This document shows, piece after piece, positions 57,383 through 64,000 of a DNA stretch of 64,000 bases. The notes beneath the pieces are model-generated. The model made no database searches. It had not been told where the DNA came from and saw only the letters and a program-made list of their open reading frames with translations. Made by a program: the position numbers and the translations under genes. Source of the stretch: Heterostelium album PN500 (taxonomy: Eukaryota > Evosea > Eumycetozoa > Acytosteliales > Acytosteliaceae); NCBI RefSeq assembly GCF_000004825.1, contig NW_008805086.1:186001-250000 (forward strand). The letters are read 5' to 3'. Within the stretch, counting starts at the first letter, position 1. Every line of letters begins with the position of its first letter.

Positions 57383-59440
57383 TTAATATTTTAATGCACT
57401 CTTCAATGCAACTAACCAGTCATCCATTGACTTTGAAGAGTCACAACAAAGGTGCCAAATTCTCTTGGGTGTTCGTATATCTATTCCAAAGTATTCTGAA
57501 TCTTTATCCTTGTCTTTGCTGGCAGAGCTACTATTATTGTCAAAGTTTACATTTATATTACAATTGTTTGGTTTGATCGCTACAAAGATGGCCGTGTGCA
57601 AATCGATTGATCCTTTATACTTTAAGTTCTCGTAGTTGATTTGTTCGGACTGATGTGATATCGTATTCGATCTATCTTTATTACTTTCATTATCTTTACC
57701 ATTACTATTACTATTATTATCTTTACTATTACTATTGCTACTGTTAATATCATTTATATTGCTATTACTATTATTATTATTGCTATTACTATTTAAATCT
57801 AAATCGAATGTACTTGATGTTGTTAGTTGTGGTGTCGTTATGTGTGGTAGTTGTTCTTGTTGGTGTTCTCTTAATGATGACGTCGGAAGATCGTAATAGA
57901 TCATTGTCTTTCTCATGTCCAATATGAAATACCTCTTCTTCCAAGACTTTACTTTATTGCCACGCTTCTTCATCCAGCCTTGTTTGATAATGCCACCCGA
58001 AGGTACACCTTTACTCATTGCCTCAAGTGGATTCGATTGGAATGATACTGGTTCATTAAAACTACTACTAATATTACTATTATTACTATTACTATTATTA
58101 TTATTATTTACAATGTTTGTTGTGTTGTTGATGTTGTTTGCAGGTGGTTTCGATACTACTGCTTTATGCCACCCTCCAACAGAAACTACTCTCTCTGGTT
58201 GCAGAGGTGTCATTGATGCAGAAGCAGCAGCAGCTAATGCACTTGCTATACTATTATTATTGCTATTGGTTGTGTTGTTATTATTATTATCTATTGATAC
58301 ATCGACCAATTGTAACTCTGGGGAACTATTGCTATTGGATGTGCTAATGGGTACGGGTGGTAGTGGATATTTAGGTGGTGAATGATAACTATTGGTTTGT
58401 CTTTTTAATATTTGAATATGATTAGTAGTATTATTATTATTATTATTGTTGTTGTTGTTGTTGTTTGTAATTGAAATGGTAGATAAATCAACATCTATTC
58501 CACTGAATAGTGATGAATTTTCATTGGTTTGTTGATTTAGGTGATGATTGGTTGGTACGCCGATTGGTGAGGAGATGAATGATGATGAAACCTGATCGTA
58601 GATGTTGACTTTCTTTATCTTTTTGTCTTCGTTAATGATCTTTTGACTGTTTGCTAGCATGATTCGCCATTCTATCACTGAGAATACTAAATTGTTGATG
58701 GTGGACTCCAAGTAGAACAAACGCTCAAGATCATCGTTGATCTTTGACAGCAATGTCATAAACTCCACCCATAGCAAAGCAATCGGTCCCAGCATTCCAA
58801 AAGATCCATCCGACTTTAACTTTGATCTAGCTGCCGACACTATATTCGGTGATACAACCGCATTGCTTGTTGTTGTCATCGTTGTTGTTGCTGACGATGG
58901 ATTGGGATTAGGTCTTTTACTTCCTATTATTGTTTGATGTTGTTGTTGTTGTTGATGATGACTATGTTGTTGTTGCTGTTGTTGTTCATCTATTAATATT
59001 GTTGTTGTTGTTGTATTTGTAAGTGTATTATTAATGTTTGTGTTATGGTTGTTGTTGTTGTTGTTATTTGTAGTAGAAGATGGTCTTCCTCCAATATCAA
59101 TGATTGCCTTTTCCAGTAGTATTCTTTCGGCTTCGATGAATGTGGAGAATGACGATTGGTGTGCTTCTATTAGAAGGAGACGGTCGATGTCGTAGCTCGA
59201 CACCTCAGAGAGTGCACGCTCCAGTGAGAATCGCATTGTTTGGTATTGTCTGTCCATCGCCATCACTGCTTCTGCCACCGGTAACAATCTAACATTGACT
59301 TTCTTCATATTGACAGCAGAGATATCGTAAAAGTTATTCTCAGTGTTGAATGTCTGCTTGACATACGGCAGGAATGCAATCGATAGCCATTCATCTAGAT
59401 AGGCATTGTGAAGTGTTGCGAATGTTCCTGTTCCCTCCAT
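57383..59440 (-). CDS. PH-domain protein with N-terminal BAR-like helical region
   Basis: One uninterrupted exon of 685 residues on the minus strand. The ATG at 59440 (MEGTGTFATLHNAYLDEWL) is the first in frame. Residues ~1-140 and ~215-285 are rich in helix (MDRQYQTMRFSLERALSEV, LLIEAHQSSFSTFIEAERI, INDDLERLFYLESTIN), interrupted by an Asn/Thr/Gln insert. Their length and pattern could be a BAR or arfaptin-like dimer, but this is not certain. Long Asn/Ser/Thr tracts follow. The C-terminal PH domain starts IIKQGWMKKRGNKVKSWKKR and ends with WHLCCDSSKSMDDWLVALKS. It is interrupted by a low-complexity insert. The start of the PH domain has the basic KxWKKRYF phosphoinositide-binding motif. A role in membrane or endosome trafficking is inferred. 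Confidence 0.75.
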   Translation of the reverse strand: MEGTGTFATLHNAYLDEWLSIAFLPYVKQTFNTENNFYDISAVNMKKVNVRLLPVAEAVMAMDRQYQTMRFSLERALSEVSSYDIDRLLLIEAHQSSFSTFIEAERILLEKAIIDIGGRPSSTTNNNNNNNHNTNINNTLTNTTTTTILIDEQQQQQQHSHHQQQQQHQTIIGSKRPNPNPSSATTTMTTTSNAVVSPNIVSAARSKLKSDGSFGMLGPIALLWVEFMTLLSKINDDLERLFYLESTINNLVFSVIEWRIMLANSQKIINEDKKIKKVNIYDQVSSSFISSPIGVPTNHHLNQQTNENSSLFSGIDVDLSTISITNNNNNNNNNNNNTTNHIQILKRQTNSYHSPPKYPLPPVPISTSNSNSSPELQLVDVSIDNNNNNTTNSNNNSIASALAAAASASMTPLQPERVVSVGGWHKAVVSKPPANNINNTTNIVNNNNNSNSNNSNISSSFNEPVSFQSNPLEAMSKGVPSGGIIKQGWMKKRGNKVKSWKKRYFILDMRKTMIYYDLPTSSLREHQQEQLPHITTPQLTTSSTFDLDLNSNSNNNNSNSNINDINSSNSNSKDNNSNSNGKDNESNKDRSNTISHQSEQINYENLKYKGSIDLHTAIFVAIKPNNCNINVNFDNNSSSASKDKDKDSEYFGIDIRTPKRIWHLCCDSSKSMDDWLVALKSALKY

Positions 59441-60527
59441 ACTGTACTGTGACCCACACAACACTTTTAAGTAAAACAACTAACTATTATTATTGAACTT
59501 TAATTTAATTAAATTAATTAAAATATATTATTATTTGTTGATTGATTGATTTGTCTTTTACAAAAAAAAAAAACAAAACACACTGTTTTTTTTTAATAAT
59601 TATTTTCCAATGAGGATATCTTATAAATTTGATTTTTGAACAAAACTTCTTTTTTATTTCTTTTTTGGTTTGATTTTTTTTTTTTTTTGTTTTTATAAAA
59701 ATTTCCAAAAACCCATACCCACCCGATATTGATGACCCCACTACTTTTAAGTGTGGATATTTTTTTATCCATCGGATAAAAGTGCCTAGATCTATTTGAT
59801 CATGTCAACATTTTCAATAAAAGTGACGTTGTTGTCACTATTGAAAACTTTAAAATATGTTTTAATTAATTCTTTACACTCATATAAAAATAAAAATCAA
59901 CTTATTTACTTTTTGAAATTTTGAATTTAATAGATTACTTTTTATTTTAGACCATTGTTGTTTTTGATTTATTCTTATCTTTTTTTATTGTTGATATCGT
60001 TGTCAAAATAAATATTTTTTGTTTGATTTTTTAAAATCTTTGACTTTATTGTTCAACAACAACATCCAATTTTTATTAATCTTTGAAGTATCACAAAAAC
60101 AATTAATCTGTGCTTGCCTAAAAACAGTCTAATAAATCAACCACAAAAAAAGCCAATATCTGCAAAAAAACATAAAAAAGATACCAAAAGAAACGACGAG
60201 ATTTGCCTCCACGCACCCTTTTTGATTGAAAAGATTTTGATTTGATTGTGATTTGATTTTTGTTGTGATCAATCGTTTTTAATTAATTTACATTATTTCA
60301 AAATTATAATAATATTCATCTAGAGAAAAAAAAAGAATCATTCCTTTTGTTTTTTAGTTTTGTTTTTTATTTAATCGTCAAACAAGTAAATAAATAGAAA
60401 GATAAGAAACTTTGTTAATTATTTATTATTTTAGAAAACCATTTTTAGATATTTTGTTTTATCTTTTTTTTTATTTTTCTTTAGTTGCTTAAATAGGAAA
60501 AAGAGAAATAGTAGAAAAACAAATATA
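59441..60527. other. Divergent intergenic region with two inverted repeats
   Basis: More than 1 kb between the PH protein (-) and the TIG-DNase II gene (+). It is AT-rich apart from ~59700-59850, which has the two hairpins listed next. No open frame is recognised. Confidence 0.5.
59763..59847. other. Pair of adjacent inverted repeats
   Basis: The first is TTTTATCC/GGATAAAA at 59763-59781 (8 bp, 3-nt loop). The second is TTTTCAATA...GTGAC/GTCAC TATTGAAAA at 59811-59847 (5 bp, a 3-nt bulge, then 9 bp, with a 6-nt loop). An AACCCATA sequence about 55 bp upstream (near 59710) resembles the DUSE element of Dictyostelium small-RNA promoters. They could be a small RNA gene or protein-binding palindromes. 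Confidence 0.3.
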
Positions 60528-63500
60528 ATGGTTTTACAAATAAAACTTGTGAATATTTTAATATTCATTGTTGTTGGTAGTTTTCTATCAACTATAGGGT
60601 CGGTGAAATCTCAAGTAATCACTTTTTATTCACCACTCTTTGGTTACAAATTTGGCGTCACCGAGTTCACTGTAAGGGGAACTGGTTTTGGTGCTGCACC
60701 TGAGCTCTATATCGCTTCTATCAGACAACTGATGATAGAGGTAGATGTCAATCCATCCGGTACCTCTACATTCGTATGGGAAATCAGGAATCCCAATAGA
60801 TTGGATAGAAACTATATGAAAATTCAATATGGTTTCACAGTGGTATTTCCAGTTTTGCCAGTTGAAGAAATTTTCTTTAATTTTATAAGTAAGTTAAATA
60901 TTTTATTTAAATTCATTCTTTCAATTTTTTTTAATAATTATATATTAATATATTTATATTCTTATGATAGCTGCAAAAATAAATTCTTTTACACCAGAAT
61001 TTTATTATCCTAGAGCTCTGGATAATCAAGTGACATTGACCATTTTTGGAGAGAATTTAATTTTGTTTGACAACGATCCAAAACCAATGGTGAGATTTGA
61101 AAATAATGAAAATCAAGGAGAATTAAAAGTTGTCTCTTATTCAAAAACTCAAATCCAATGTACCATACCAAACTTGGAAGAAAATGTTGCTATGGATTTC
61201 TCAATCGTAGTCTACCCTCAAAGTCTTCCGGGTGGAGTTATTGCACCAAGTCTCTTTTTCTATACAATACCACTTCAGAATCGAGTGGTTCCAACAAGAG
61301 GAATGTCAAACCAACAGCAAATAACAATTGTTGGAGGTCCCTTCCTTGAATTCCCACAAAGCTATGCGATTGTTGTTGGTGGTCAAAACTGTGTGATTAA
61401 AAAACGTTCCAGCACAAGAACTATCTGTGATTTTGTTAACACTCAAAACGTCCAACCTGGCACTGAGTTAGCTCTTCCAATTAAGTCAACCATCGATGGT
61501 CAGTTTGTCCTTGGTCTAGTTAATTATGTTATTTTCAGTAAGTTTTAATATTATAAAAAAAAACAAACAATTTGTGAATATTTCTAAAACTAATAATATT
61601 AATAATATAAAAGAACCAAATATCTTAAGTTTTAATCCAAGTGCTTCATATTCAAATACCGAATTTGATATATCAATCAAAGGAAATTATCTTTCAACAG
61701 CTACCTCTGTTTTAATTGGACCGTCACCATGTACTATTACATCGATTTCAGACAATGAAATTATATGCAATTTTAATACTATTGGTGACGATCTTATTGG
61801 TGATCTCGATGTAAATGTTTATTTTGATGGAGATACTTTTGTTACCGGTGATGAACAATTCATATTCGTAGCCAGACCCTCGCTATTAAAAATCACACCA
61901 ACCCAAATCTTTACGGTAGGAGAATGGGAGATCAACGTAGTTGCACAACACTTCATTGATGACAATTACATTGTTATCAATGGTGTTGAGATGGAGGCAG
62001 TCCCTATCACCGACACTCTTTACAAGGTTAAAGTAGATCAAAATACGCTGAAATGGGCATTGGGAGATTATGATTTGACCATTCATTCCAAGTATGATCC
62101 AAATGTAGTATCGGAATCATTGACTTTATCAGTTGTGGATTCTGACATAACAATTAGTCCCAATTTTGGATATTACTTCTCACAAACTCCAGTTGAAATT
62201 GCATTTACAAATTTTCCAATTCAATTTTCCCCGACTGTAGCAATGGTTGCTACTCTCAACAATCAACCAATAGGTGGAAACATCATAATTCTCAGTACCC
62301 AAAAATTAGGTGTTACTGTTCCTCCATGTACATCTGATGACAACATGGTTTCTGTTCTTACCATAGATTTCACCTATTACGTTTTCACAATTTCATTCAA
62401 TTTCAACTATTTGCAACCCTCCTACGATAGTTTCATAAAGCCAGATCTAACACTTTGGCAGGGTGGTGGTTATTTCGAAATTCATGGTGCTAATTTGCAA
62501 GTAATCACTTCTATTCAACTGGGTGATTCACTTCTCGATATGTCAAAGTGTACTCATACAACCAACATTTTGATTCGATGTGAAATTCCATCTCGTACTC
62601 CTGGTAAATATTTCATGGTTTTGATTGCCAAAGACAGTTTCAATATTGATCACCCATACTCAAACGATGATGAGTTGTTCATTGAATACATGGGTCCTTC
62701 CCTTATTTCAGTATCACCAGCACGTGGATCAAAAACAACACAGAATACTCTTTACATTGATGGCACCAATTTACTTGACGACCCCACTCTTATTCAAGTA
62801 ACTGTTGGAGGATTACAATGTAACAATATTCAAATTATTAATCCTGGATCACAGATTTCTTGTGTGATCGATCCAATGGATAATGTTGGAGAGTTGGATG
62901 TCATTGTCATTGTAAATGGTGTTACATCTGATGTCATTGGAAAATATTTGTCCTACTCGATTTCTTGTCTAGGAAGAACTCAACCAGACGGAACCAATGA
63001 AGTTGTTGACTGGTGGTTTATCTATAAACTTGGGGCAAATGCACCCGGAAATCCCTATTTATATATTGACTCGAAAATGGAAAAACTTGAATTGTATAAT
63101 GATCTTCAACACCAAGCACCTATTCCAGATACACAACCCAACCCCACTTTCAGTCCTCTGGAAGCTACATTTGGACAGCCTGGAGTCACTTATTACATGT
63201 TCTACAACGACCAAACTGGAACGAGAAAAAATTCTGGCTACAGAGATCAGTCTACATCGCATGACACCTATGGTCATACCAAAGGATTTACATTTTGGGA
63301 GGAAATTGGACAGACAATCAATGGTATTCACATTCACCATTCTAACCCATTGTTTCCATCAAAGGCAGACGATGGCAATGGATACAATGGACCCCAAAAA
63401 GGTATCAAGTTTCTTGGTAAAAATGATTTCAGCCAACACTTTTTTTGTTATTCGTACAATAATCTCGAATTGGTAACGGAATATATGGTCAAGAACTATG

Positions 63501-64000
63501 CATTTATTTCGGGTGCTAATGTATTCCCTGATCTAGCAACATCGGTTTCAAGACAACAGGCATTCCCATATCTCTATGACTTGATAATTACCAAGACAAT
63601 GAGACAAGATTTGCGTAACAACCAATGTGAAGATCAAATAATAAAGGGAAATAGAGATCTCCTAAATTACTGTTATTGGATCTCAAATACTGAAGTAATT
63701 GGCAATGGTTTGAAAGCCAAATACTTTAGTAAGATTGGAACCGCTGCAAACGAGAATAATAAATTGTTCAAGGATCCATCAAGATCATCCTATATCTTGT
63801 ACAAGAGACCCGATATGAAATATGTAGATGGAGTCGATCTCTGGATGGTCGTTGCAGATACATTTGCAAAGAGAATGTTTGTTCAAATGTTTGCTTCCCA
63901 AAATAATTATGATGGAGGTCGTCCTAAATACCCAATGCAACCAACTGAGCAAATTCTGAATGTGGCTCACTTAGAATTGCCTCGATATTTATGTCCTAAT
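60528..64000 (+). CDS. IPT/TIG-repeat protein fused to a DNase II domain (right end cut by the window)
   Basis: Three exons, 60528-60888, 60971-61537 and 61614 to beyond 64000, are open throughout: 1,105 residues so far. A signal peptide (LVNILIFIVVGSFLSTIG) leads into IPT/TIG-type repeats to ~residue 750, with typical turns such as VTLTIFGENL, QQITIVGGPFLE and LYIDGTNLLDDPTLIQV. From ~759 a DNase II domain begins: SCLGRTQPDG, VVDWWFIYKLG, then YYMFYNDQTG, the first catalytic HxK motif in YGHTKGFTFW (His ~864), GIHIHHSNPLFP and FCYSYNNLELVTEYMV. DNase II is an acid, divalent-metal-independent endonuclease of the PLD fold and needs a second HxK near its C-terminus; that part lies past the edge. 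The role inferred is a secreted or lysosomal DNA-degrading enzyme with an adhesive or stalk-like N-terminal part. Confidence 0.88.

Follow-up and report, generated by a model that had tools for sequence, protein, structure and literature searches.

A gene joining IPT/TIG repeats to a DNase II domain in Heterostelium album, within a family of catalytically intact and dead branches

Does a single gene of Heterostelium album PN500 join IPT/TIG repeats to a DNase II nuclease domain and, if so, what might the joined protein do? The question is raised by the end of the stretch of DNA analyzed here (the window: 64,000 nucleotides, G000:C25:186001-250000, G+C content 32.0 %), which lies within a 32.9 Mb genome of 39 contigs. 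A preliminary description of the window had proposed such a fusion, and as a whole it was partly supported by our analysis. DNase II is a metal-free acid nuclease with two HxK domains of the phospholipase D (PLD) type (PMC9208542, PMC11430429), and its conserved disulphide cysteines are named in PMC9208542.

Results

One open frame for TIG repeats and DNase II

The part of the gene that falls in the window comprises the following features:

60528..60888, plus strand: exon 1, with ATG at 60528, a hydrophobic export-type N-terminus and the donor GTAAGT at 60889
60971..61537, plus strand: exon 2, with splice ends; IPT/TIG repeats (PF01833, E = 9.5e-11, 2 stretches)
61614..64000 and 106 bases past the window, plus strand: exon 3, TIG repeats and then DNase II in one open frame
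62696..62929, plus strand: best-scoring TIG domain (Pfam), directly 5' of the DNase II domain
62993..63628, plus strand: DNase II (PF03265, profile positions 6-194, E = 4.6e-23)
63272..63286, plus strand: first catalytic motif, GHTKG (first HxK)

We confirmed that the TIG–DNase II fusion in one gene is real. Exon 3 is open for 795 codons without a stop from its start to the window end, as had been claimed, and it holds TIG repeats and the first, larger portion of the DNase II domain in the same frame, so the join is not an artefact of splice guessing. Both introns in the window have GT..AG ends, and a single splicing choice maintains the open frame. Profile searches bore out both domain calls: PF01833 matches upstream of the DNase II domain in exon 2 and in exon 3 (the latter with E = 1.6e-20 over 4 stretches), and PF03265 matches at 82.3 bits against a curated cut-off of 23, which places the gene in the DNase II family. 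The genome-wide search with PF03265 recovered the same place, together with a second piece past the window (C25:250059-250292), and the GHTKG motif named in the preliminary description was located within the domain. Exon 1, scanned alone against Pfam, returned no match; the claim of 700 or so residues of TIG repeats is thus borne out for exons 2 and 3 but not shown for exon 1.

The N-terminus agrees with the proposed signal peptide. Among the first 1,367 residues, the eight most hydrophobic 19-residue stretches all begin at residues 1-10 (maximum 2.29), and it is on this N-terminal hydropathy only that we call the protein exported. Elsewhere in the window, a neighboring open frame on the minus strand (57383-59479) has poly-N and poly-Q tracts, and its end looks PH-domain-like by eye.

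The gene beyond the window

The remainder of the window gene (locus L009) comprises the end of exon 3, further exons, and the stop. The second HxK, which the preliminary description had proposed to seek past 64000, is present there as EHAK (equivalent to 64043-64054), with HAK beginning 46 bases past the window end, and the exon after exon 3 carries the DNase II motif C-x-GD...RGGG. Downstream of the DNase II domain lies a module of ~600 residues; the long last exon then gives matches to TIG and TIG_SUH, after which the stop follows. Because TIG matches recur in this last exon, the DNase II domain is central in the protein rather than its C-terminal part, as it had been described. The usual build of a DNase II, a stand-alone enzyme of ~350 residues, is thus replaced here by one with TIG on both sides in the same gene.

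The ~600-residue module gave no Pfam match in the last-exon part of L009, and no Pfam family scored above cut-off in pieces from L018, L017, L011, L043, L019, and L045; the L043 piece returned three matches below cut-off, the best being PEGA at E = 0.061. The best PDB match of the module from the giant branch had E = 1.4, which we regard as chance. The idea of a degenerate metallopeptidase found no support, with HExxH absent in the 23 loci scanned.

State of the window copy

Of its paralogs, the window gene is closest to L022 (C25:404 kb), with which it shares 96.6 % identity across a 5,022-base alignment. Compared with L022, the window copy has two extra single bases in the module after DNase II, each of which disrupts its reading frame, and L022 has a frame break of its own further downstream; moreover, dN/dS between the two is 0.66-0.94, against 0.18-0.35 for either of them compared with a copy on contig C7. 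A recent duplicate decaying into a pseudogene, within a family that is otherwise functional, would look like this. We give that reading slightly less than an even chance, given that exons 1-3 are open across the entire TIG–DNase II junction and the two HxK motifs, that the frame breaks could be single-base errors of a draft assembly, and that a dN/dS near 1 could equally reflect diversifying selection. The C7 copy (L019 and L045) is open throughout in a model of 2,260 residues, in which a small intron may have been left unspliced. At least one family member thus has the architecture intact, though the window copy may not.

A membrane anchor, which the preliminary description had proposed to look for downstream, did not show up at the C-terminus in hydropathy scans. 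The window gene, scanned on either side of its two frame breaks, reaches at most 1.48 in the last exon, and the last part of L022 likewise has no C-terminal membrane segment; nor does the C7 copy, in which the maximum after the N-terminus is 1.70 at residue 1747, internal and borderline. No stretch in the L044 and L045 frames exceeds 1.7. Placement on a surface would call for such an anchor.

The family in the genome

The PF03265 search returned 65 matches in the genome, clustered to 48 loci, 18 of which lie on C10, C12, C15, and C25 with 4-5 on each. A same-strand TIG match within 6 kb, which is proximity and no proof of a single gene, accompanies at least 35 of the 48 DNase II loci, and 127 of the 150 best-scoring TIG matches adjoin a DNase II locus, where rough arithmetic predicts ~1-2 of 150 by chance. 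Because the TIG scoring covered 150 of 729 candidates, the first of these figures is a lower bound and the second describes the best-scoring matches only. The view of TIG repeats in dictyostelids as stalks, normally, of surface recognition proteins is a poor description of this genome, in which most of the scored TIG matches sit beside DNase II.

The two domains share one frame in all four of the scanned long frames that reach upstream, i.e., the window gene and three paralogs on other contigs (L011, L016, and L019), and the C7 gene model likewise joins TIG and DNase II in one gene. That two adjacent genes were merged through a missing stop or a misassembly is consequently extremely improbable; the common frame here and in the three paralogs, together with the association at so many loci, led us to reject artefactual merging, in favor of which we found nothing.

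Thirteen of the 48 loci have no listed TIG match nearby. They include five on C27 and a stand-alone DNase II on C3 (C3:2986732-2987703; 344 bits, 360-residue frame, no listed TIG match within 6 kb), and the others are at C10:746728, C15:493073, C15:948139, C23:10111, C3:474680, C35:132727, and C9:28254. The stretch upstream of the C35 locus reads TIG-like by eye. At G000:C27:345964-362337, four roughly evenly spaced matches are confined to the C-terminal part of DNase II, and none has a listed TIG match nearby.

Family members vary in size and layout. L016 (G000:C10:818031-819017) has 4,436 residues in one open frame, with a catalytically dead DNase II domain and 29 TIG stretches in the 3,299 residues read. 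In L029-L032 (C3:16928, C6:218404, C15:498961, and C3:2647674, respectively) a dead DNase II domain comes straight after a hydrophobic N-terminus, and the listed TIG matches are downstream only, which would be another domain order if they belong to the same gene. Past the TIG part of the giant copy on C9, another frame (L042:2502-3038) resembles by eye a B domain of the SdrD/colossin type.

A pattern search of genome contigs for prokaryotic relatives gave 87 matches, none of which encoded a relative; the pattern came from a 4-row alignment and reaches only fairly close relatives.

Catalytic motifs and comparison with known enzymes

We read 35 loci out of the 48 for HxK motifs. In 23 of them the first HxK is intact, and in 12 its histidine is gone (L011-L018 and L029-L032). 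All 21 keepers of the first HxK that could be read for both motifs, among them the stand-alone DNase II, have the second as well; in L034 the second was read only across pieces in different frames, and in L047 and L048 it is outside the stretch fetched or was not found in it. Among the dead copies the second HxK is absent in all 11 read via the C-x-GD anchor (L011 has DHSH), and L029 has no such anchor. The window gene itself has one HxK in each PLD half, HTK and HAK, both aligned with those of the genome's stand-alone DNase II, with which it also has the HS-P-FP and C-x-GD motifs in common. When the first part of the domain from the 35 loci is placed in a tree, the 12 dead copies group together (support 0.88), and the 22 copies with HxK other than the canonical enzyme also group, with support of only 0.38. 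Because the stand-alone enzyme is the only outgroup, its split from the other 34 is trivial.

The domain resembles the DNase II family (PF03265; solved example 5i3e/5unb, putative deoxyribonuclease-2) by profile match and differs from it in lying between TIG arrays, the model of the intact C7 relative having 2,260 residues. The stand-alone DNase II matches 5i3e by itself (E = 2.9e-38), whereas the window domain alone found no match among PDB sequences (phmmer, up to E = 1). A profile from 11 family members matches 5i3e with the first HxK aligned (E = 3.5e-13; a second stretch scores 5 bits), but it is not independent support because the stand-alone enzyme is one of the 11. The single-sequence AlphaFold2 model of the DNase II part within the window had a mean pLDDT of 34.3 and was discarded.

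A lineage expansion in which DNase II copies lose the catalytic motif has a parallel in Trichinella spiralis, for which 125 DNase II-like genes are predicted and the HKD motif is said to be present in plancitoxin-1 only (PMC4148230). The set in H. album differs from that one, as far as it is described there, in retaining the first HxK in the majority of the loci read.

Selection on the DNase II domain

Over longer distances, dN/dS shows the DNase II domain to be constrained in both branches. Between the window gene and the intact C7 copy, dN/dS is 0.18 for DNase II, 0.35 for the upstream TIG repeats, and 0.20 for the last exon; synonymous sites are almost saturated there (dS 1.0-1.5). The HxK pairs L019/L020 and L009/L020 give 0.24-0.30 for DNase II against 0.41-0.45 for TIG; L019/L026 yielded no DNase II value. 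Among dead copies, six distant pairs (dS up to 2.5) have 0.13-0.22 for DNase II against 0.31-0.41 for TIG, and three closer pairs have 0.19-0.36 for DNase II, the highest being that of L017/L018, where it exceeds TIG (0.26); L012/L013 gave no TIG value. Since the domain is still constrained where it is catalytically dead, these values suggest that it keeps a binding or structural role there.

Recent HxK pairs depart from this pattern. DNase II dN/dS is 0.94 for the window gene and L022, and 1.07 for L023/L024 (TIG 0.25), and the amino-acid changes in such pairs leave the HxK residues untouched. These values near 1 may reflect relaxation, diversifying selection, or conversion. In the 431 DNase II codons of L023 (C28) and L024 (C9) there are 28 amino-acid changes, many of them charge changes, and 6 silent-only codons, and their upstream TIG repeats are 98 % identical. 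L012 and L013 (both on C12) are 87 % identical in the DNase II domain, most of which is nearly identical past a divergent start, vs 35 % identical over 385 upstream codons; this looks like an exchange of the DNase II domain between giant copies.

Discussion

We propose that the window locus belongs to a large family of exported multi-domain TIG–DNase II proteins in which the HxK branch would cut DNA and the dead branch would bind without cutting, and we put the probability of this reading at roughly 0.5. In the window gene and an intact relative, the architecture runs from an export-type N-terminus through TIG (Ig-like) repeats, a central DNase II of the phospholipase D kind, and the ~600-residue module to more TIG. 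The TIG arms may tether the protein to a surface, to a glycan, or to a partner; DNase II domains of the HxK branch would cut DNA, metal-free and at acid pH. An acid optimum points to phagosomes rather than the open medium, so the most likely site of cutting would be the phagosome or material entering it, the substrate being prey DNA, self DNA, or trap DNA; the branch without HxK would keep the fold to bind rather than cut. Outside cells at neutral pH, a DNase II with an acid optimum would be expected to have poor activity, which counts against this best explanation. So do the two frame breaks of the window copy, the pairs that depart from the constraint pattern (window/L022, L023/L024, and L017/L018), and the lack of a PDB match for the window domain alone.

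IPT/TIG proteins of dictyostelids are treated as adhesion/recognition proteins (PMC4931340) and those of social amoebae are discussed as adhesion or kin-recognition molecules (PMC4931340, PMC12821622). The family might accordingly serve TIG-based cell-cell or cell-prey recognition like Tgr proteins, with DNase II co-opted as a binding domain, whether active or not. Several results agree with this: the first catalytic histidine is lost in about a third of the loci read while the domain stays constrained in the six distant dead-branch pairs, in distant pairs the DNase II domain changes more slowly than the TIG repeats, and 18 of the 48 loci lie on four contigs. The family resembles Tgr in its export-type N-terminus (by hydropathy only), its TIG repeats (by Pfam), and its many members. 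It differs in possessing a DNase II domain and, by hydropathy in the copies checked (window gene, last part of L022, and C7), in having no C-terminal membrane segment, which Tgr proteins possess (PMC12821622); furthermore, a pure binder would not need both HxK motifs, which every fully read keeper retains. For the dead branch recognition is a strong rival to our proposal, but for the family as a whole we think it unlikely.

A role in the turnover of extracellular DNA traps, e.g., those of sentinel cells, would suit an exported protein of nuclease type, and DNase I dissolves the DNA nets of D. discoideum (PMC4773522). Yet DNase II acts at acid pH, and the relevant passages of that study name no amoebal DNase II or TIG protein, so that we consider this role quite improbable.

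Expansions of DNase II and of IPT/TIG proteins are each already known, and what may be new here is the joining of DNase II to TIG arrays. The IPT/TIG row for P. pallidum lists 110 proteins (PMC4931340, Table 4). The IPT/TIG orthogroup OG5_153020 ('IPT/TIG, EGF-like, C-type lectin'), which is expanded outside D. discoideum, has 35 genes in P. pallidum and 9 in D. discoideum (PMC4334915, Table 2); from its size and TIG label it may be the TIG–DNase II family described here, although that table names no DNase II. Our full-text literature search, mostly of papers outside subscription, found none linking DNase II with a TIG domain. The fusion may well be annotated in databases already.

The TIG–DNase II family is a candidate source of the term 'deoxyribonuclease II activity', one of the enriched terms common to dictyostelid lineage-specific expansions (PMC8535579). 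More speculatively, and with rather low confidence, the main family of TIG-repeat proteins could be built round DNase II, in some members a nuclease and in others a pseudonuclease, and handle or sense extracellular or phagosomal DNA; active members would cut, dead members would bind, and the TIG arms would direct them to prey, kin, or matrix. The catalytically intact and dead branches, side by side in one genome, form a natural experiment on the purpose of the domain. If high-scoring TIG domains mostly adjoin DNase II, part of the IPT/TIG family would have to be re-read as nuclease-derived.
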